A stretch of 64,000 bases of DNA from Pirellulales bacterium. Lineage in GTDB: Bacteria > Planctomycetota > Planctomycetia > Pirellulales > JAEUIK01. The notes under the pieces were generated by a model that was not told the origin of the DNA, did no database searches, and saw nothing but the letters and a program-made list of their open reading frames with translations. This document shows, in pieces, positions 48,759 to 60,538 of the stretch (its first letter is position 1; every line of letters begins with the position of its first letter). The stretch spans positions 1 to 64,000 of the forward strand of contig JAIESQ010000007.1 of NCBI GenBank assembly GCA_019745975.1, read 5' to 3'. The position numbers were made by a program, and so were the translations under genes.

Positions 48759-51221
48759 ATGACTCGGCAGTACCGGCAAGCCTGGTTGATGCTTATCGCC
48801 GTCGGGATGCTAGCGACCGGCTGCGGGCCGTCGCAGCCGTTCTACTTCTTTGACGACGGCGATATGTCGCACTATCGCGGCGTGGCCACGCAGATCGAGT
48901 ACCCCGACGTCGAGCCGGTACACCTGGCCGAAGTCGAAGGCGCCATGCCCCCGTTGACCTTGCGGAACGCCGAGCCCCAGGAGATTTGGGACCTCCCGCT
49001 CGAAGAAGCGGTGCGGCTGGGCTTGATGAACAGCAAGGTGCTCCGCACGTTGGGAGGGACCGTCGTCACGCCGCCCACGCAGCTCTTGCGGGCGCCCAAC
49101 ACGATCGCCTCGGTCTACGATCCGGCGATCAACGAGAGCAACCCGCGCATCGGCGTCGAGGGTGCCCTGTCGGCGTTCGACGCGCAGTTGGTCTCGAGCG
49201 TCATCTGGCAGAAGAACAACCGCATCGTGAACGTCCAAACCGGAGCAACCGACGCCATCAACTCGGCGTTGTTCGTCAACAACCTGCGGCAGGACTACTC
49301 GCAGGGGATCCTCGAACTGCGAAAGACGGGAGCCACGGGCGGTCAGTACTTCTTGCGCAATAACACGATCTACGACCAGAACAACACGCCCACGCGGTTG
49401 TTCCCCAGTGCCTGGGACACGAACATCGAAGCCGAATTCCGGCATCCGCTGTTGCAGGGTGCCGGCGTGACGTTCAACCGCATCGCCGGCCCGCAGGCCC
49501 AGCCGGGCTTCTTCTTCACGCAAGGCGTGGTGCTGGCGCGGATCAGCAACGACATTTCGATCGTCGATTTCGAAATCGGCGTCCGCAACCTGGTGGCCGA
49601 TATCGAAACCGCCTACTGGGAACTGCACTACCGCTACCGTAATCTCGACGCGCTGATCGCCGGGCGCGACAGTGCCTTGCAAACCTGGCGCAAAGTGTAT
49701 GCGCTGTTCATCGTCAGTGCCCAAGGTGGTGAAGCTGAAAAAGAAGCCCAGGCCCGCGAGCAGTACTTCCTGTTCCGCTCGCAGGTCGAAGCCTCGTTAA
49801 GCGAGCTCTACGCGGTCGAGAATCGTTTGCGCTACATCATGGGCCTGGCGGCGACCGACGGGCGGCTGATTCGCCCGTCCGACGAGCCAACGACGGCCCG
49901 GATCAATCTCGATTGGTACGAAGTGCACGGCGAAGGCCTGGCCCGCGCCCAGGAACTGCGTCGCCAGAAGTGGGTGATCAAGCAGCGCGAAATGGAATTG
50001 ATCGCGGCGCGCAACTTCTTGCTGCCGCGGCTGGACCTGTTGGCCCTGTATCGCTGGCGCGGTTTCGGTAACGACTGGTGGTACGCCAACGGCCGCAACA
50101 CGCCGTTCACGGTTCCCAACGGTAATCGCCTGGCCATCCCCGGAGCTCCTCCTCCGCCCGACTTCGTCAACGTGCCGGGGACGTTTAGCAACGCCGTGCA
50201 GAACTTGCTCGACGGCAGGTACCAGGAATGGCAAGCGGGTTTCACGTTCACTATGCCGATCGGCTTCCGCCAGGCGATGGCGGCCGTGCGGCAGGCCCAA
50301 TTGAACCTGGCTCGCGAACGCTCCGTCTATCAAGATCAAGAACTCGAGCTGTCGCACCAGTTGAGCGAAGCGATCCGCGTGGTCGATCGCACGTATGCCT
50401 TGAGCCAGACAAACTTCAACCGCCGCGTGGCTGCCGAGCGCAACGTCGAGGCGGTCAAGGCGGCCTACGAGACCGGCACCGTCACGCTCGACTTGCTGTT
50501 GGATGCCCAGCGCCGCCTGGCCGACGCCGAAGTCAGCTACTATCGCGCGCTGGTCGATTACAACCTCAGCATCCGCGACGTGCACCTGCGCAAGGGCTCG
50601 TTGCTGGAATACAACGGCGTCGAGCTGAGCGAAGGCCCGTGGGCGGGCAAGGCCTACTTCGACGCCCGCAAGCGTGCTCGCGAACGTGACGCCGGGTTGT
50701 TCATCGACTATGGCTTCACGCAGCCGAGCGTGTACAGCCGCGGACGGTTCCAGCAGTTCATCAATGGCCAGGGAACGGCTGGCGGGACACAGATGGTGCC
50801 AGGCGGTCAGCCGACCGGCGCCGAGGAAGTGCCCTCGCCACAGCCGCTCCCAGCCGGGCAGCCGCCCGATAACGGAGCGCCGAACGAGCCGGTTCTGCCG
50901 GCTCCCCAGGCCCGTGGCTTGACGACGCCCCCCGGGCAGGGGAACTTAGCGGGAGCACTCCCCGGCCCGGGTCGAACGCCGCCGGGCTGGGGCGGTGCGA
51001 TTCCTGGTGCGCCCAACGGTGCAGTGGGAAGCTGGAATGGGGCACGCACCGGGCAGGGCACGACCCCCCTGGCGCTGGGACCGGCTGGCAATTCCGGTGG
51101 CGTCGGGCATCCGGTGCGGCAAGCTGCGCACGTAGCTCCCTCGGCGGCAGGTTATGGCGGATTCGCGGGTCGGCCGATTGATCACGCTGCTGGTGCACCT
51201 GCAGTCCGGACGGGGCCATAA
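48759..51221 (+). CDS. TolC family outer-membrane efflux lipoprotein
   Basis: About 820 residues. It is probably an outer-membrane channel of a tripartite exporter. A lipobox is visible (VGMLATGC, Cys about residue 22). Between residues about 80 and 640 are long amphipathic alpha-helical and beta segments of the OEP type, e.g. ISIVDFEIGVRNLVADIETAYWEL and AAERNVEAVKAAYETGTVTLDLLLDAQRRLADAE, the repeat signature of TolC-like proteins. The last 150 residues are Gly/Pro-rich and look disordered. The ATG at 48759 is preferred because it puts the lipobox at the right place. No membrane fusion protein or pump is adjacent. The 3' end overlaps the next gene by 68 bases. Confidence 0.88.
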   Translation: MTRQYRQAWLMLIAVGMLATGCGPSQPFYFFDDGDMSHYRGVATQIEYPDVEPVHLAEVEGAMPPLTLRNAEPQEIWDLPLEEAVRLGLMNSKVLRTLGGTVVTPPTQLLRAPNTIASVYDPAINESNPRIGVEGALSAFDAQLVSSVIWQKNNRIVNVQTGATDAINSALFVNNLRQDYSQGILELRKTGATGGQYFLRNNTIYDQNNTPTRLFPSAWDTNIEAEFRHPLLQGAGVTFNRIAGPQAQPGFFFTQGVVLARISNDISIVDFEIGVRNLVADIETAYWELHYRYRNLDALIAGRDSALQTWRKVYALFIVSAQGGEAEKEAQAREQYFLFRSQVEASLSELYAVENRLRYIMGLAATDGRLIRPSDEPTTARINLDWYEVHGEGLARAQELRRQKWVIKQREMELIAARNFLLPRLDLLALYRWRGFGNDWWYANGRNTPFTVPNGNRLAIPGAPPPPDFVNVPGTFSNAVQNLLDGRYQEWQAGFTFTMPIGFRQAMAAVRQAQLNLARERSVYQDQELELSHQLSEAIRVVDRTYALSQTNFNRRVAAERNVEAVKAAYETGTVTLDLLLDAQRRLADAEVSYYRALVDYNLSIRDVHLRKGSLLEYNGVELSEGPWAGKAYFDARKRARERDAGLFIDYGFTQPSVYSRGRFQQFINGQGTAGGTQMVPGGQPTGAEEVPSPQPLPAGQPPDNGAPNEPVLPAPQARGLTTPPGQGNLAGALPGPGRTPPGWGGAIPGAPNGAVGSWNGARTGQGTTPLALGPAGNSGGVGHPVRQAAHVAPSAAGYGGFAGRPIDHAAGAPAVRTGP

Positions 51222-52239
51222 CACCTCGACCCTGGCCGAAACCTGCGGCGTCAGCCGGCGGACGATCTTTCGCGATCTCGAACTGCTGCGCGAAGCGGGC
51301 GTGCCCCTCTGGTTCAACGCCGAGGAACAGCGCTTCTATCTCACCGGGCGCAGCCTGCTGCCCCCCATGAGCTTCACCCCCGAAGAAGCGCTCGCGCTGG
51401 TGATGCTCTGCCACGACCTGGGGAACGACCAAGGGCTGCCGTTCTGCCAGCCCGCGCGCTCGGCGGCGCTCAAGCTCGAAAGCGCGCTACCGCAGCCCTT
51501 GCGCGACCACTTACGGCAAGTCGGGGCGGCGGTGGCGATTCAGTTGCAGCAGGTGAACGCGCTAGCCGAAGCGGAACCCGTGTATCAGCAACTGCTCGCG
51601 GCGATCGGTAGCCGCCGCGCCGTGCGTATCCAGTACAATAGTTTTGCGGACGCCGAGCGACTCACCACCAAGCTGCATCCGTATCGCCTGCTCTTCAGCC
51701 GCCGCAGTTGGTATGTCGTGGGGCGCTCGTTGGTACACCGCGAGATTCGCACATTCAACGTCGGGCGGATCGAGAAGCTGGAGCCGCTCGACGAGCGGTA
51801 TCGCCTGCCGCACGGGTTTTCGCTCAAGCGCTACTTGCGCAATGCCTGGCACCTGATCCCCGAGCCGGGCCCCGACGCGGAGATTATCGTGCGTTTTCAA
51901 CCGCTGGTGGCCGGCAACGTCGCCGAAGTGGTTTGGCATCCCACACAGCGCCTCGAGTGGAACGCCGATGGCACGCTCGATTTTCATGCCACGGTCTCGG
52001 GGATCCACGAGGTATCGTGGTGGGTGCTAGGCTATGGCGACGAGGCGGAAGTGCTCGCGCCGGCGGCGCTGCGCGAACTGGTGGCCGGTCGGGCCGAGCG
52101 CATGGCCACGATTTACACCGCGCGGCGGAAGCGCGAAGGAGGCGCAACGCGGCGATCGCGCCCGACGAACCGTGGCAACGGACAATCGCCGCCGTCCAAA
52201 GAGAGGGAGAGATCTCCGCATGCGCGCAGTGAAGTCTGA
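51154..52239 (+). CDS. WYL-domain transcriptional regulator
   Basis: A 361-residue DNA-binding regulator. The N-terminal HTH (residues about 5-60: RLITLLVHLQSGRGHNTSTLAETCGVSRRTIFRDLELL) is of the DeoR-like WYL kind. The WYL domain (about 135-215) shows AVRIQYNSFADAERLTTKLHPYRLLF and RRSWYVVGRS, and a C-terminal extension (WCX type) ends near 330. WYL regulators sense nucleotides or nucleic acid ligands and often sit next to defence or DNA-repair genes. The last 35 residues are low-complexity and overlap the next gene. It starts inside the end of the TolC-like gene. Confidence 0.9.
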   Translation: MADSRVGRLITLLVHLQSGRGHNTSTLAETCGVSRRTIFRDLELLREAGVPLWFNAEEQRFYLTGRSLLPPMSFTPEEALALVMLCHDLGNDQGLPFCQPARSAALKLESALPQPLRDHLRQVGAAVAIQLQQVNALAEAEPVYQQLLAAIGSRRAVRIQYNSFADAERLTTKLHPYRLLFSRRSWYVVGRSLVHREIRTFNVGRIEKLEPLDERYRLPHGFSLKRYLRNAWHLIPEPGPDAEIIVRFQPLVAGNVAEVVWHPTQRLEWNADGTLDFHATVSGIHEVSWWVLGYGDEAEVLAPAALRELVAGRAERMATIYTARRKREGGATRRSRPTNRGNGQSPPSKERERSPHARSEV

Positions 52240-53272
52240 TCGACTATCGACAAGGTCAGCGGGTTCGGGCCGCAACCTCCGCGACTGGCGAGCGGCGCAC
52301 TTCGCGAGACGCGAGCGGCTGGCTCGCTGCCTGGTGGCCTGCGGAGTGGCGCTGCTTTGTGCGCTGCCAGCGATCGCCGCTGATCCGGCAGCCTCGACGG
52401 ATCGCCCTGCACAAGCGGCTCCCGCGGAATTGTTTCCGCCCGAGCTCGTGCGCTTCAAACCGTATGAGCACAACCCCGTCTTCACCGGCGCCGGGCCGGG
52501 TCACTGGGACGTCAGAATTCGCGAACGCGGCTGGATCTTACGCGAGCCTGGCGGCTATCGGATGTGGTACACCGGCTACGATGCCACGCGCGAGGGGCGC
52601 AAGCACTTGGGCCTGGCCACGAGCGACGACGGGCTGGCCTGGACGCGCTGGCCGGCCAATCCGCTCGATCGCGACCACTGGATCGAAGACATGCAGGTGC
52701 TACGCGACGGTGATACTTACTACATGTTCGCCGAAGGCGAGCGTGACCAGGCCCACTGGTTCACTTCGCCTGACGGCATCAAGTGGCAGCGCCGTGGCAC
52801 GCTCGATATCCGCAAGAGCGACGGCGAGCCGATCTCGCCCGGGCCGTTCGGCACCCCCTTCGTGCTCCGCCAGCGCGATCGCTGGCTCTTGTTCTACGAG
52901 CGCATGGACCTGGGTATCTGGTTGGCGACTTCAAGCGATCTGACGCAATGGCGTCATGTGCAGGATGAGCCGGTGTTCGTCCCCGGGCCGGAGAAGTACG
53001 ATCACTTTCAGGTCGCCTTCAACCAGGTGATCGAGCGCGGCGGGCGGTACTACGCCTACTATCACGCCCGTGAATCCGCCACGACGCGCGACTGGTCGAC
53101 GAACCTGGCCGCGAGTGACGACCTGGTTCACTGGACCAAGTACCCGCGCAATCCGATCTTGGAAGAAAACAAGTCGAGCCCGCTCTTGTTGGACGACGGC
53201 AAGCAGCTACGGCTCTACACGACGCACGACCAGGTGCAGGTGCATTTTTCGCAGGCCGAGGCGGCGCGCTGA
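52220..53272 (+). CDS. Exported five-bladed beta-propeller glycosidase-like protein (GH43/GH32/GH130-like)
   Basis: About 350 residues. A signal peptide (CLVACGVALLCALPAIA) precedes repeated beta-propeller blades with W..YTGYD-type motifs: YRMWYTGYDATREG, HLGLATSDDGLAWTRW, HWIEDMQVLRDGDTYYMF, YYAYYHARES, LAASDDLVHWTKYP. The pattern fits glycoside hydrolase or phosphorylase families acting on plant or algal polysaccharides; the catalytic acids cannot be set with confidence. The ATG at 52220 follows gagagggagag. It overlaps the regulator by 20 bases and shares an ATGA with the dTMP kinase gene. Confidence 0.82.
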   Translation: MRAVKSDRLSTRSAGSGRNLRDWRAAHFARRERLARCLVACGVALLCALPAIAADPAASTDRPAQAAPAELFPPELVRFKPYEHNPVFTGAGPGHWDVRIRERGWILREPGGYRMWYTGYDATREGRKHLGLATSDDGLAWTRWPANPLDRDHWIEDMQVLRDGDTYYMFAEGERDQAHWFTSPDGIKWQRRGTLDIRKSDGEPISPGPFGTPFVLRQRDRWLLFYERMDLGIWLATSSDLTQWRHVQDEPVFVPGPEKYDHFQVAFNQVIERGGRYYAYYHARESATTRDWSTNLAASDDLVHWTKYPRNPILEENKSSPLLLDDGKQLRLYTTHDQVQVHFSQAEAAR

Positions 53273-53880
53273 TGTTCTTCGCCTTTGACGGAGTTGACGG
53301 GGCCGGCAAGAGCACGCAGATCGCGCGCTTCGTCGGCTGGCTCGAAGCCCAGCGGCGCGCCGTCACCCTCTGCCGCGATCCCGGCGGCACCGAGTTGGGC
53401 GAAGCAATCCGCGAGCTGCTGCTGGGGCATCGCCACGCCGGCATGTCGCTGCCGACCGAGGCCCTGCTCTACATGGCCGCCCGGGCGCAACTCGTCGCTG
53501 AGATCATCAAGCCAGCACTTGAAGCGGGACGCGTGGTCGTCTCCGATCGCTATTTGCTCTCGAACGTCGTCTATCAGGGGCACGCCGGCGGGCTCGAACC
53601 CGCGGCGCTGTGGGAGATCGGTCGCACGGCCACGGGCGGGTTACTCCCGGACCTGACCTTTGTGCTTGACCTCCCTGCCGACTTCGCCTGGCAGCGGCTG
53701 GGCGGCCAGGCGGACCGCATCGAATCGCGCGGCGTGGCATTCCAAGAGCGCGTGCGCCGCGGCTTTCTTGAGGAAGCGGCCCGCGATCCCGAGCGCATCA
53801 AGATCATCGACGCCCAGGGGAGCGCGGAGGAAGTCGCCGCGCGCGTGCTCGCCGCAGCCGCCTCATGGATCACCGAGTAG
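53272..53880 (+). CDS. tmk: Thymidylate kinase (dTMP kinase)
   Basis: A 202-residue cytoplasmic kinase that phosphorylates dTMP to dTDP. The P-loop is FDGVDGAGKSTQ, the DRY-type base motif is VVSDRYLLSNVVYQG, and the LID-type region is around GGQADRIESRGVAFQERVRRGF. The start shares one base of an ATGA with the end of the preceding gene. Its place at the end of a cluster for export and polysaccharide use is unexpected for a housekeeping gene. Confidence 0.95.
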   Translation: MFFAFDGVDGAGKSTQIARFVGWLEAQRRAVTLCRDPGGTELGEAIRELLLGHRHAGMSLPTEALLYMAARAQLVAEIIKPALEAGRVVVSDRYLLSNVVYQGHAGGLEPAALWEIGRTATGGLLPDLTFVLDLPADFAWQRLGGQADRIESRGVAFQERVRRGFLEEAARDPERIKIIDAQGSAEEVAARVLAAAASWITE

Positions 53881-53930: not shown

Positions 53931-56900
53931 TCAGCTACGCGGCACCGACAGTGCCCCACTGTCACTCGAAGCCACTATATTCGCACGCTTGAGACTCCAA
54001 ATCTGCCTCTCGACACGTTCTTGTATGCGTCGACCGGCACGTTGAAAGCCGAGTGCTCGAGCCACGGCCTTCACAAGGTCTTCCGGTGACGTCTGGCCGT
54101 AGCGGCGCAATGCCGCCAGGATGGCGCTTTCGATATCACAATCAGCTACATCATCAATATTGTCGAAGTCCAAAGATTCGTCAGCGAACTCATTTGGTGC
54201 AAACAATCGTGGCTGCTCCGGCGCCGACTCAACGTCCGTCGCGCTCAGTGGCAGGCCACTACCGGCCTTTAGGGCAGCCTCATAGGCCGATAGCACTCTA
54301 GCTACCTGGCGTTGTGGGTTCCGTATCCAATCTGTGGACCAAATTCGTAGGATCTGCCATCCGAGCCCAGTCAGAATCTCTTGCCGCAGCCGATCTCGAT
54401 CGCGGGCAACGACGGAGCTGTGATATGAGGCACCGTCGCATTCGACACCGAGCAAGTATCGACCTTTCTCCTGTGGGTGCACAATCGCCAAGTCGATTCG
54501 ATACTTGGCGCACCCGACTTGCGAACGCACGTCCAATCCCACAGTTCGCAAGGCCGCGGCAACCGATTCCTCGAAGGGAGAATCAAAATCGCGCAGCCCA
54601 TCGTCACTGATCGCGGCAGCCAGAGCCTGTGTTCCTCGCTCAGCAAAGTCAAGATAGGCGCGTAAAAGTTCAGCGCCCCTGGATTTGGTCCTCGACAGGT
54701 CGATGTCATGCGCTCGTATTGAGCTGACCACCGTTACGCTTTCCCGGGCACGCGTGACCGCCACATTGAGCCGCCGTTCTCCGCCCTGCATATTGAGGGG
54801 TCCGAAGCGCATTGCGAACTTGTTCTGATCGTCAAAGCCATAGCCCACACTCAGCACAATGCAATCGCGCTCATCACCTTGAACGTTTTCTAGGTTCTTC
54901 ACAAAAAACGGCTCGTCGCCGGTTCCGTTGAGCCGCTCGGCTAATCGCGCGTTGGAACAAGCCGATTGGGCCGTGTTGTCGTCTTGCAAACGCTCCAGTT
55001 CATCAAGTACAGCGATTTGCTGTCGTTGATTGAACGTGATCACCCCGAGCGATTTGTCTGGGAAGTCAATGAAGTGGCGCAAGATCAGTTGAGCTGTTTC
55101 TCGCGCCTCAACTGCGTTGTACCCGCCAGAGGTACCTGCCCGCCAACGCCCTTCTTGTACGGGATGCCATTTCACAGCGCGACCTTCGTCGGTGTCGTAG
55201 ACGCTTGGGAAGGTCAACAGCGTGTTCCCATAAACATGGTGGTTCGCGAAGGCGATGAGCGGCTCCCGACGACTCCGATAGTGCCATCGGAGTTGCCATC
55301 GTGGCAGTCCCACCGAGCGGCACACGTCAAGTACGCTCTCGAAATCCGCTAGACTGCCCACCTCATCGCTATCTTCGTCATGGGCAGAGCCGTCATCGCT
55401 GGTCAGCCGATCGAAGAACGTTGTTGGTGGGAGTTGCTTTTGATCTCCGGCGACGACGAGCTGCTTTCCGCGATAAACGGCGCCGACAGCATCAAACGGG
55501 CGCACTTGCGAGGCCTCATCGAATATCACTACATCAAATCGAAAACTCTCCGAATTGAGGAACGTACTGACCGCTAACGGGCTCATCATCAGGCAGGGCT
55601 TGAGCTGCATTAACAGCGAAGGGGTTTTTTCAAACAGCTTACGAAGCGACATGTGACGGCGCTTCTTTTCGACCTCCCGTGTCAAGATTCCCAGCTCAGA
55701 TGAAGCTGGTACAAAGTCCCAGTCGAGATGCGGCCGATCCGGCTTCGACAAGAGCCGCTCGCGGAGTCGTTTGTACGAGTTGGCGATGGCCGCGCGATCA
55801 GCCGTCCGGTACTCGGTCAGCAATCTTTCGTGGTCGTCGATGTTAAACTGCCGAAGCACCGGTGTCGTCGCGTATACCTGAGTTAGCCAGAGTCGATAGA
55901 GGCGCTTGTGAAAGGCGTCGAGGAGGCGCCTCGCAGGAATTTGCTTCGCCGTCGCCTCAATCGTTAATTGCGAAATCCCCAAGGCTTCAAGGCGTCCAGC
56001 GGCTTCTCGAAACGTCAGCCATTCCCGCAACCACGGGAGGTCGTTTATCCGGTGACGCACCCATTCCACCAGATCATCAAGAGACATTGCTCGAATTGCG
56101 ACTCGATCGTGAGTTGCGACCTCAAGATCAAAAGCCGCTTCAAGCTGCATCCACGCCTTGGTAACTCGATTCACCAGAATCGCAGCACATTCTCTTACTG
56201 CGATACGAGTTCTGTCGCGAAAGGCGCGATCGCACGCGATGCTGACTACCGCGGGTGGGATTAAACCATCGAATTGCGCTAACAACTGTCGCAAGCAGGC
56301 GACTTTGATGCGCGATTCCGCCCACTCGGGCGACCGCATTGATGGCATCGTTACCCCAAGCGACTTGAGCTGACGAAGAAGGCCAACGAGTTGCTGATAA
56401 CGAGCCGCCAACGCACCCAGTCTTTCAAGGGCGGCTGGGAGGGCGCTCAATAGGACGTCGCACTCGGGTTTGAGCAGTCGCAAGATAGACTCGTCCGCCT
56501 CGATCTGTCGCTGAAGTGCGCTGACGCCATCGCTCAGCACTTGATCGACTACCGAAGGGCCGCAGTCGAGAAACGCCTTTCGATCCGGTCCAATCCGTGA
56601 AAGGTCAAATTGGTCGGACAGAGATTTGAGTTGATCAGAATGCGAAGAAAGCACAGCTTCCAGTTGCCCTACCGCAATGGCCACACGTTCGCGATCAAGT
56701 CCATTGTCAGTCGTTAACGAGGCCACCAGTCGCTCTGGAATGCGGGTTTCCCGCTGCAAGGCCTCGATGGCCTCGCAACCAATCAACAACGAGTCCCAGT
56801 CGAGGCATCCGTCACTTTGTACCCAGAGCTCTGCAGAATATTGGGCCTCGTAAGTTCGCAATGCGGCGCGGCGAGCATGGTACTCACCTAACCGATGGAG

Positions 56901-59339
56901 ATCCCAAAGCATATCCCTGGCGGTTCGGGGCGCCGGGGTCTGGTAAAGGCGTGATGCGCGCCAGCGAAACTCGCGCCAAGGTCCGAGTAGCCTTCGCCAA
57001 AATGGACGGAAGCTCTTCGCTTCTTCACAAACTCGCGCCCCCTCAGCCTCAAACGCCAGAGAGGTGACGATCGGTTCTAGTTCTTGGCGAATCGAATGGC
57101 ATGCGTCTTGGTGAGCTTTGCCTTCAGCCGCTGCTTGTCGAAGTACGGACCGCCGCGCATTATCGAACCACGATCGCTTCATCAGCCCTGTGTCGGCGAT
57201 CGCTCGGCCGATTCGCGCAAGTCGCACGAGCTGACCGATTGGGGGCTCTCCGCTCATTGACAGACCAATTGCGTTGATCAGCTCCCTAGTGGTTTGGCGC
57301 AGTTCGTTATGCGTCGCACGCAGACTCTCAACCTGCTGTAAGGCACCCCTAAAGTGGTGATGTCGCGAACGAACGCTAGCTAGCTCGCCTTGACTTCGTG
57401 CTCTGGCGCACCACGCACCGGACGCGCGTGCGATCTGATTTGAGAGCTCTTCGAGATTTGCTTTTACCGCCTCGGCAGTGAATTGCGGAATTGCTCGCTG
57501 GATCGATTCATATTCCGCAAGCGTCCGGTGACAATCTTCAATACGCTGGGCAACAGCCGCGGGATCCTCGGCAAGCCAAGACTTTGGCAGCTCAGGCAAC
57601 TGCAGTAGATTGCTTGTCGCCGCTAGTTCAGCTTCGACACGATCTTTGCATGCTCCCGCGGTCACCAGTCCCGTTTCTTCAAGTGTCGTAAGCGGCTCTC
57701 GAATTTGGGTGAGCGCCTCGACAAGTATGTTGAATGTATGCTCAAGGTCGTCTTGAGCGATTAGTGACAGCTCCTTCAAGCGGCAGTTGCGCCACGGATG
57801 TGACTCATAGGCATCGATGACATTCTCGCAAGCTGCTAATGCCTCGATCGCGCGCTCCATTTCGCTCAAACGCTTGATGTCGAGCGACAGCACATCGCCC
57901 AGCGGGCACTGCGAGTTTGGTGCGCCGTCTAGCTCGGCTACCAGGCCATGAACTCGAAAAGCAGTCCATTGAAGCGTGCCCCGCGGCACGTGCAATGCTT
58001 GCACGTATTGGTTTAGGCTCGTTCTGACGGAGTACAACCGGTCCAGGTTCTGTTGTTGACTGGCGAACCGCTCCACGGGCAATTTCAAGCAGCGACCCAG
58101 TTCTGCAACAACCACTTTGCGGCTTACTTTGTGGCTATGACATTCGAGGCAAAAGTCGCCGAGCTTCTGCTGATCCAGCCGGCGCTTGACTACTTCAAGT
58201 GCGGCCGATTTTTCGCTGACAAAAAGGATTGTTTTGTCCGCGGCAAGACACTCCGCGATGATGTTCGCAATCGTTTGACTCTTGCCTGTACCCGGTGGGC
58301 CATCAAGCACCAAACTATGGCCGGCGCGAACAGCCAGGATAGCTTCCAATTGACTACTGTCGCAGTCCAGCACCGTGTGTAATTCCGCAGGATGAATCTG
58401 CTCGTCAAATGCCTCTTTGCCGGGAATTGGCGAGCCAGATGCACCAGCCGTTGCGTTTTCGTCGCCGGCAATTGCGCGGCAGAGAGGATGCTCGGCAATG
58501 GATGCTTTGTTGTCACGTAGGTCCTGCCACATCGCAAGTTTTTGAAAACTGAAAACACCGAGCACCGCATCGTCGTCCACAGTCCAGCGGGGCTGACTAG
58601 TTACCGCTTCCCGAACTGTATTGAGCCACTTCAATCGATCGTTGCCACTCTCAAAGCCGTCGTCCGGCAGCTCGGGCAGCACAACGTTGAAATTGTTCTT
58701 CAGCAACTCCGTCAAAGAGTAGTTCGGCGAGATTCCGTCGTCAGAGGCGGTCAGCGCCCAAGAGCGCTCGGGACCGCTTCGGTCCAGTACAACCGGCACT
58801 AGAATCAGCGGTGACTGAAGGCACACATCGCTGTCCGGTGACTCATACCAATGCAACAATCCGAATGCCAAGTACAGAATGTTGATCCCTTGTTCTGACA
58901 AGGATGTCTTGGCATTTAGTGAGAGCCTTGAAAGTCGAGTCGCCAGCGCTTTGTCAGACAGCGCTGTCAATAGGTGTTGGTTAGGCCTAAAACCGGGCGC
59001 GCTCCGACAACCATCAAGGTCTGGAACGCGGCGTGACCCAGCAATTGATTCTTCGCCCTCCAATTGGGTATTGGCAAAGTCGCCGGCTTCGTCCGGCGAC
59101 TCGCCATCCGCCGGATCACGATCGGTGTCATTTTCTGCCGGAATTAAATCGAGCTTGCGCACGAAGATCATCGACTCAGAGTCGTCGACCAGAATTCGCC
59201 AAAGCATCGAAGGCGCCGGTTCCTCGAGGCGAATAGCACCAGTTCGGTCGACGCGGCAGTTAATAAGCCGGTTTCGCTTCGACAGGTCGAGGAGCTGTGA
59301 GCGCCATTCGTCGATCCTCGAAAGAACCCGGTCCGGCAT
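53931..59339 (-). CDS. DUF4011-helicase-nuclease-DUF3320 protein (Hhe-like antiphage candidate)
   Basis: About 1,802 residues. N-terminal DUF4011 (LSRIDEWRSQLLDLSKRNRLIN) is followed by a superfamily-1 helicase: Walker A at about residue 345 (DGPPGTGKSQTIANII), Walker B about 1,275 (VIFDEASQVRPFDAV), then VVAGDQKQLPPTTFF and the end motif RLNVAVTRARESVTVV. At about 1,590-1,670 is a Vsr/DUF559-type endonuclease (PFEESVAAALRTVGLDVRSQ, YRIDLAIVHP, GVECDGASYH) and a C-terminal DUF3320 (about 1,735-1,800). The order matches the single-gene Hhe antiphage system, as I recall from Gao and co-workers 2020. By eye its GC content is lower than that of its neighbours, which suggests horizontal transfer. 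The start used is the ATG at 59339. Confidence 0.88.
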   Translation of the reverse strand: MPDRVLSRIDEWRSQLLDLSKRNRLINCRVDRTGAIRLEEPAPSMLWRILVDDSESMIFVRKLDLIPAENDTDRDPADGESPDEAGDFANTQLEGEESIAGSRRVPDLDGCRSAPGFRPNQHLLTALSDKALATRLSRLSLNAKTSLSEQGINILYLAFGLLHWYESPDSDVCLQSPLILVPVVLDRSGPERSWALTASDDGISPNYSLTELLKNNFNVVLPELPDDGFESGNDRLKWLNTVREAVTSQPRWTVDDDAVLGVFSFQKLAMWQDLRDNKASIAEHPLCRAIAGDENATAGASGSPIPGKEAFDEQIHPAELHTVLDCDSSQLEAILAVRAGHSLVLDGPPGTGKSQTIANIIAECLAADKTILFVSEKSAALEVVKRRLDQQKLGDFCLECHSHKVSRKVVVAELGRCLKLPVERFASQQQNLDRLYSVRTSLNQYVQALHVPRGTLQWTAFRVHGLVAELDGAPNSQCPLGDVLSLDIKRLSEMERAIEALAACENVIDAYESHPWRNCRLKELSLIAQDDLEHTFNILVEALTQIREPLTTLEETGLVTAGACKDRVEAELAATSNLLQLPELPKSWLAEDPAAVAQRIEDCHRTLAEYESIQRAIPQFTAEAVKANLEELSNQIARASGAWCARARSQGELASVRSRHHHFRGALQQVESLRATHNELRQTTRELINAIGLSMSGEPPIGQLVRLARIGRAIADTGLMKRSWFDNARRSVLRQAAAEGKAHQDACHSIRQELEPIVTSLAFEAEGARVCEEAKSFRPFWRRLLGPWREFRWRASRLYQTPAPRTARDMLWDLHRLGEYHARRAALRTYEAQYSAELWVQSDGCLDWDSLLIGCEAIEALQRETRIPERLVASLTTDNGLDRERVAIAVGQLEAVLSSHSDQLKSLSDQFDLSRIGPDRKAFLDCGPSVVDQVLSDGVSALQRQIEADESILRLLKPECDVLLSALPAALERLGALAARYQQLVGLLRQLKSLGVTMPSMRSPEWAESRIKVACLRQLLAQFDGLIPPAVVSIACDRAFRDRTRIAVRECAAILVNRVTKAWMQLEAAFDLEVATHDRVAIRAMSLDDLVEWVRHRINDLPWLREWLTFREAAGRLEALGISQLTIEATAKQIPARRLLDAFHKRLYRLWLTQVYATTPVLRQFNIDDHERLLTEYRTADRAAIANSYKRLRERLLSKPDRPHLDWDFVPASSELGILTREVEKKRRHMSLRKLFEKTPSLLMQLKPCLMMSPLAVSTFLNSESFRFDVVIFDEASQVRPFDAVGAVYRGKQLVVAGDQKQLPPTTFFDRLTSDDGSAHDEDSDEVGSLADFESVLDVCRSVGLPRWQLRWHYRSRREPLIAFANHHVYGNTLLTFPSVYDTDEGRAVKWHPVQEGRWRAGTSGGYNAVEARETAQLILRHFIDFPDKSLGVITFNQRQQIAVLDELERLQDDNTAQSACSNARLAERLNGTGDEPFFVKNLENVQGDERDCIVLSVGYGFDDQNKFAMRFGPLNMQGGERRLNVAVTRARESVTVVSSIRAHDIDLSRTKSRGAELLRAYLDFAERGTQALAAAISDDGLRDFDSPFEESVAAALRTVGLDVRSQVGCAKYRIDLAIVHPQEKGRYLLGVECDGASYHSSVVARDRDRLRQEILTGLGWQILRIWSTDWIRNPQRQVARVLSAYEAALKAGSGLPLSATDVESAPEQPRLFAPNEFADESLDFDNIDDVADCDIESAILAALRRYGQTSPEDLVKAVARALGFQRAGRRIQERVERQIWSLKRANIVASSDSGALSVPRS

Positions 59340-59698
59340 GGTCCCACCCCGCGGCATTCTGCGACGACTTTGCAGGTTTACATTGGAATCGACGGCACGG
59401 CCAAAATCCACTTCCACCAATTATCGTGCAACCATCGAGTCCGTAGGCAATCGGGCGTCGGCACCACGGCTCCAATCAATCTAGGACGGAGATTATGTCT
59501 GTACCGGTTTGACTGCCGCACCTATTGGTGGGACACCACGCTCGGGCTCTTTACTAATGAGCCTTGACGCAGCTTTCGGCGACCGGCAACACAGGAGGCA
59601 CGCGACGGATTACAGGCATCAGACTTCAGCGGATGGATGACCGTTGCTGAGCCGTCCTCAGCGACACCCGGCTTATTCCGCCGGCCGGGGTGCACGCG

Positions 59699-59911
59699 GG
59701 ACGCAGGAACAGGCCGCAGTCCACAGGCATGGGACTTGCAGTTCACACCCGGACGCAAAACGCCGCGCCGGACGCAAACCGGACGATCACCCGGACGCAA
59801 AATGGCCGATGTTACACCCGCCCCAAGTTGTGCCCTCAATTCGAGTTCGGGTGCAATATCAACACACCCGGACGCACCCGGACGCAAATTCCCGGACAAA
59901 CTTATTCTGGG
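59699..59911. repeat. GGACGCAA repeat block, copy 2
   Basis: The octamer ggacgca(a/c/g) occurs at 59699, 59751, 59770, 59793, 59870 and 59880. The block ends with the 32-base module at 59880-59911 seen also at 23538-23569 (30 of 32 identical). It is followed by a hairpin, gaccc-tcgg-gggtc, at about 59914-59928. The whole 59340-60149 stretch holds no gene I can support. Confidence 0.8.
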
Positions 59912-60149
59912 GGACCCTCGGGGGGTCGGCGGCCGGGACAAGCGGTGCATCGCCACTGCGGCCTGGCCAGATCTGGCCTGCTCAGCACATCAAATAAAGT
60001 AAGGTGCGCACGCGCGTCACGGCGGGGAACTGGTACACGCTCTCGGGCGCCGCGGGCGGGCCGGCAGAACGTCGTCCGGTTCGTTTGCAACTGGCCACGC
60101 GGGGGAAGAAAATGGCCCCCGATCCGCTTCACTCGGTTCGGGTGACGAC

Positions 60150-60538
60150 ATGAATTTGATTGCACTGCGTGCCAACGACGAGTCGGCCTGGCAGACTTAC
60201 CTGAAGGCCACGATATTTCTCGTACCGACGTGCCCGTTTGGCTGCTGGCACGCACTTACTTGTTTCCCAAGCTGCAACTTATTTGGAACGAGAGCGGCGC
60301 CACTGGCTCCAACATCCAGTGGTTGATGGATAGCACCAGCGTGGTCATGACACGCGGCGCGCTGTTGGTGGGTGCCGTGTTTTTGGTGATTGCATTCGTT
60401 GAAATATTTGGGCGAAGTTCCTTACGCAGGCCAATTCTGGCGACGATCGTGTTCCTATTCAACACGATCATCATATTGAGCCTGGCGGCGATGTGTCTGG
60501 CGGCGTTGTATGCGGCTCACGGTTTGCGCGGGAACTGA
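60150..60538 (+). pseudogene. Small membrane protein gene with a frameshift
   Basis: Two frames combine into one sensible protein: from the ATG at 60150, MNLIALRANDESAWQTYLKATIFLVP, then, one frame over from about 60230, PVWLLARTYLFPKLQLIWNE to the stop at 60538, with two further transmembrane helices (GALLVGAVFLVIAFVEIF and TIVFLFNTIIILSLAAM). The first frame hits a stop at about 60330 with nonsense sequence in between. A single missing base near 60225-60231 explains it. It could be a true pseudogene or a sequencing error. The second part alone, starting at a GTG at 60230, would also be a 102-residue open frame. Confidence 0.65.

Follow-up and report, generated by a model that had tools for sequence, protein, structure and literature searches.

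Giant proteins which join an SF-I helicase, a Vsr-like nuclease of the MTES_1575 type and wHTH domains were discussed in 2013 (PMC3710099). The examples given carry HEPN and transglutaminase-like domains at the N-terminus and two wHTH. It was proposed that they act independently of modification and recognise invading DNA through the C-terminal wHTH. A DUF4011 gene is also known to flank cDHS1 in all the P. aeruginosa isolates which were examined (PMC10250203): some DUF4011 proteins are thus core genes and the domain alone is no proof of a defence role. Three named models are close to the protein described here. Hhe (NCBIfam NF042953, also a PADLOC model) is a solitary gene with the domain order DUF4011, SF1 helicase, Vsr-like nuclease. 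ProA (NF058533) has the same three domains and, in its full form, about 350 residues in front of them. PDC-S37 is a single-gene phage defence candidate of PADLOC with a helicase-nuclease core. In a literature search we have found no primary paper on PDC-S37, nor on ProA with DUF4011. To our knowledge, phage defence has been little studied in planctomycetes.

The window which we have analysed is a stretch of 64,000 nt from a Pirellulales genome (contig JAIESQ010000007.1). It contains an intact gene which codes for a DUF4011 protein of 1802 aa. The reading frame has no internal stop. Read from the ATG of MPDRVL, the gene agrees exactly with the coordinates of the first-pass annotation; counted from the first TTG, the ORF spans 53931..59420 (-). 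We think that the gene was probably acquired horizontally and that, on its own, it probably codes for an antiphage (anti-foreign-DNA) effector of the broad DUF4011-SF1 helicase-Vsr-like nuclease family, in a planctomycete-only branch which would lie nearer to PDC-S37 and ProA than to Hhe. The features of the locus are given in Table 1.

Table 1. Features of the DUF4011 locus, in window coordinates; residues are those of the 1802-aa protein
Feature	Position	Strand	Remarks
tmk (thymidylate kinase), left flank of the DUF4011 gene	53272..53880	+	
DUF4011 - SF1 helicase - Vsr-like nuclease - winged helix, one intact gene, 1802 aa	53931..59339	-	
C-terminal winged helix (residues 1726-1802)	53934..54164	-	AlphaFold2 model; overlaps the sub-threshold DUF3320 match
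MTES_1575 Vsr-like nuclease (residues 1589-1684)	54288..54575	-	Pfam, 121.6 bits, cut-off 38.2
AAA_12 / RecA2 half of the SF1 helicase, motifs NVQGDERD and NVAVTRAR (residues 1347-1540)	54720..55301	-	
Helicase motif II DEAS (residues 1274-1277)	55509..55520	-	
Poorly conserved long stretch, helicase motif I to II (about residues 395-1230)	55650..58157	-	
Helicase motif I / Walker A GPPGTGKS (residues 347-354)	58278..58301	-	
DUF4011 domain (residues 15-213)	58701..59297	-	Pfam PF13195, 123.6 bits, cut-off 22.2
Dispersed modular repeat, one copy	59746..59917	+	four CACCCGGACGC cores

The first-pass annotation had placed DUF4011, an SF1 helicase and a Vsr-like nuclease in a single protein, and all three score above their Pfam cut-offs. 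The helicase is recognised by three profiles, AAA_11 (59.4 bits), AAA_12 (49.0) and AAA_19 (31.0), each above its cut-off. Its two halves are far apart along the protein, with motif I at residues 347-354 and motif II at 1274; the long stretch which separates them can be aligned over the full length only with clade members such as G343. The helicase motif residues are nearly all invariant in 15 aligned homologues. In the Walker A motif this applies to residues 347-350 and 352-354, while T351 is replaced by Ser only in the Klebsiella Hhe. In the nuclease E1590, D1616, E1633 and D1635 are invariant in a C-terminal alignment of 22 sequences. As nearly all the helicase motif residues and these four nuclease residues are invariant, nothing points to a dead enzyme. 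DUF3320, a further domain of the first-pass annotation, is in a different situation: its Pfam profile (PF11784) reaches 13.9 bits, below the gathering score of 25, and gives no confirmation, but the region is predicted as a winged helix.

For residues 1560-1802 AlphaFold2 predicts two folded units (mean pLDDT 84), which correspond to the nuclease and to the winged helix. The nuclease unit matches I-Bth0305I (3r3p, Z 11.8) and ngo0050 (3hrl, Z 11.3), and also E. coli Vsr (1vsr) with Z 9.2 over 98 residues at 2.4 Å. Judging from the MTES_1575 profile above cut-off and from this predicted Vsr fold, the domain is a Vsr-like nuclease of the EDxHD type. The DUF4011 region (residues 1-330) was also modelled, with pLDDT 86; a Foldseek comparison with the solved structures of the PDB gave no convincing fold match, so that we can only infer its role. 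Sequences from plasmid records were left out of the alignments behind these models.

The anatomy of the protein fits a reduced form of the giant proteins of PMC3710099. It shares with them the SF1 helicase, the MTES_1575 nuclease, a C-terminal wHTH which overlaps DUF3320 and the lack of a modification gene. It differs by having a single winged helix and by the HEPN and transglutaminase-like domains, neither of which was found by Pfam in the 1802-aa protein.

The gene was initially described as Hhe-like, matching the single-gene Hhe system, a name which we have not been able to maintain. The domain order and the solitary gene are indeed those of Hhe, and the matches are significant, both in PADLOC (589.8 bits) and in NCBIfam (874.4 bits). 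However, the NCBIfam cut-off is 2000 and the Hhe of K. pneumoniae reaches 2735 bits on the same model. The Hhe clade is found elsewhere in the tree: to constrain it together with the clade of the window protein costs 68 log-likelihood units (AU test, p = 3.8e-5). The equivalog cut-off and the AU test lead us to reject membership of Hhe, and we give a true Hhe system next to no weight. To call the protein Hhe from its domain order alone would be wrong. The PADLOC check which had been suggested does give matches with models of antiphage families, but the top one is PDC-S37, at 1342.9 bits far above Hhe. PDC-S37 is itself only a candidate, and its profile of 1550 positions has its best aligned stretch at 690-1344.

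ProA is more difficult to set aside. It is the best NCBIfam match of the protein, with 1278.2 bits, and in both trees which contain Hhe the clade of the window protein falls on the side of the long ProA forms. For copies from planctomycetes of the same order (G040, G045 and G048) the score exceeds 1500, the ProA cut-off, while another one (G029) is closer to Hhe. The window protein could be a ProA orthologue, under the cut-off only because it has diverged from the sequences used to build the model. Yet both equivalog cut-offs are missed, not only by this protein but also by the three full-length clade-mates which we tested (ProA scores of 1146-1285), whereas longer ProA-type proteins reach 1781-2399 bits. 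The clade also stands apart from the long ProA forms in the tree and is allied with Bacillota and other sequences. In the window protein the N-terminal 350 residues, approximately, of full ProA are missing, and only a short part with one winged helix follows the nuclease; some sequences above the ProA cut-off lack the same N-terminal residues. The sequences over this cut-off do not form a single clade, since other copies group with Hhe. A divergent ProA orthologue is thus a serious possibility, although on the whole we lean against it.

The clade itself is well defined. It contains only Planctomycetota and has 100% support, and its full-length members group again in two further trees. Besides the window protein it is formed by L105/G343, L114, L115, L118 and L231/G161, which come from Gemmataceae and other Planctomycetota. 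The nearest relatives are found in G343, two Gemmataceae MAGs, G161 and one Planctomycetaceae MAG. The G343 homologue has 41-42% identity over its whole length; that of G161 has 2110 aa, with an N-terminal extension. An alignment-based scan of genome contigs detected relatives, while a scan with the single protein as query gave none. The clade-mates belong to the same class as the window genome, but to other families and outside its order; the homologues from the same order are found in a different subtree.

The composition of the gene is also unusual. It had been noted by eye as less GC-rich than its neighbours, and the figures agree: its GC is 0.562, compared with 0.649 for the first 53.9 kb of the window. 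Its GC3 is 0.588 against about 0.79 in typical neighbours, the lowest value among the 40 ORFs which have 150 aa or more. The comparison of codon use which had been proposed was made against the window and a few other loci: the synonymous codon fit of the gene is among the three worst, and the other two are small, doubtful ORFs. A GC below that of the surroundings is partly seen in other members of the family too, but the G343 gene matches its own surroundings. The low GC may therefore be in part a family trait.

At E <= 1e-20 we have found a homologue in none of the six genomes of the same family and in 15 of 57 relatives, own genome included. The position of the gene is informative as well. 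In four genomes of the same family (G002, G003, G005 and G006) tmk is followed by holB, of the DNA polymerase III delta' family. In the window genome the place after tmk is taken by the DUF4011 gene, which lies 50 bp away and is read the other way, while holB is on another contig (G000:C184:57868-58917, L235), beside an ORF which by eye resembles an acyl-CoA dehydrogenase. The usual pair is broken exactly at the DUF4011 locus. However, holB does not follow tmk in G009 and G013 either, which belong to the same order but to other families, so that the break could be older than the insertion. From the composition, the patchy distribution and the broken synteny, horizontal acquisition of the gene is likely; the placement of its nearest relatives outside the order points in the same direction.

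Transfer had also been suggested because of a repeat block next to the gene. The block is real and adjacent, 0.4 kb upstream of the start codon, but it is no sign of transfer. Its CACCCGGACGCAAA core has 108 copies in the genome (none for a reversed control) and is absent from six genomes of the same family. The modular element is found at more than 35 places (including L015-L034 and L041-L070), with at least one unit of about 77 nt, a link of 23 nt and a common end ...TTATTCTGGGGGACCCCC. Many contigs end at its 5' side. Rfam gave no match, either for the repeat or for the window as a whole, RNA folding of the unit and of the element was unremarkable, with no strong fold, and no mobile element could be identified as its partner. 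As the repeat is genome-wide and absent from the six genomes, it is a resident private to this lineage, which has little to say about the origin of the gene. We may speculate that it marks a spot prone to recombination.

Outside this genome there are 451 plasmid records with homologues, of which 230 are typed as conjugative, one phage record and 29 loci in viral contigs, although some of the latter are just distant helicases. A gene for a TrwC-type relaxase (L231:433-3111) is found 2.5 kb away from the G161 clade-mate, which suggests that it is carried on a conjugative element. On its flanks the G343 homologue has a GmrSD_N/DUF262 gene and a double-GTPase/GAP1 module (L230:3045-4865 and L230:13158-17436), a neighbourhood which looks like a small defence island. 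The Klebsiella Hhe gene adjoins two DUF262 genes.

These associations bear on whether the protein is a housekeeping helicase-nuclease for DNA repair, with no part in defence. Vsr-type nucleases and SF1 helicases work in repair too, and the P. aeruginosa gene mentioned above belongs to the core genome (PMC10250203). A repair enzyme would agree poorly with a distribution as patchy as the one found here, with the foreign composition, with the plasmid, viral-contig and relaxase associations and with a clade-mate which adjoins other defence-type genes, and we regard this explanation as improbable.

A single-gene antiphage effector is probably the better description: the domains agree with it, the best-scoring models are those of antiphage families and in the eight window neighbours scanned PADLOC shows no further clear defence gene. 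What has to be abandoned of the initial description is the family name, together with the repeat as a sign of transfer. The gene is also solitary, as had been stated, and for its scanned neighbours PADLOC gives only regulator and kinase look-alikes. A WYL regulator at 51154-52239 was considered as a defence partner and rejected, because the row formed by an outer-membrane-efflux gene, WYL and tmk is conserved in relatives without the DUF4011 gene. DUF1559 genes are also present among the neighbours; like the named closest relatives of the protein and its kinship at the level of the phylum, they point to Planctomycetota.

As an antiphage effector, the protein would most likely work as follows. 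The DUF4011 region, together with the winged helix at the C-terminus, would bind target DNA or a replication intermediate. With ATP the split SF1 helicase would then translocate on the bound DNA or open it, and the tethered Vsr/EDxHD-type nuclease would cut it. With no modification partner, the choice between self and non-self would rest on DNA structure or on the state of replication. We infer DNA as the target, the order of the steps and the activity against phage from homology.

With this protein the single-gene helicase-nuclease defence proteins, a large set which is for the most part uncharacterised, gain a well-placed branch from planctomycetes. As its active site is apparently intact and relatives exist in further families of the class, it is a useful and testable candidate, if not a surprising one. 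A more ambitious proposal, which we put forward tentatively and consider rather doubtful, is that the planctomycete clade forms a third DUF4011-helicase-nuclease defence branch beside Hhe and ProA. Such a branch would have its own target, would be missed by the scores of the named models, would use conjugative elements to pass from one order of Planctomycetota to another and would integrate at breakpoints of core operons.

The same genome has a second, distant protein with DUF4011, SF1 helicase and MTES_1575 domains, of 1554 aa, on contig C198 (L071:6612-11276, minus strand). Its nuclease has LCDF in place of the motif ECDG and may therefore have lost the ability to cut. In the window there is also a short ORF at 60151-60538, in which two overlapping frames resemble one small membrane protein, possibly frameshifted.
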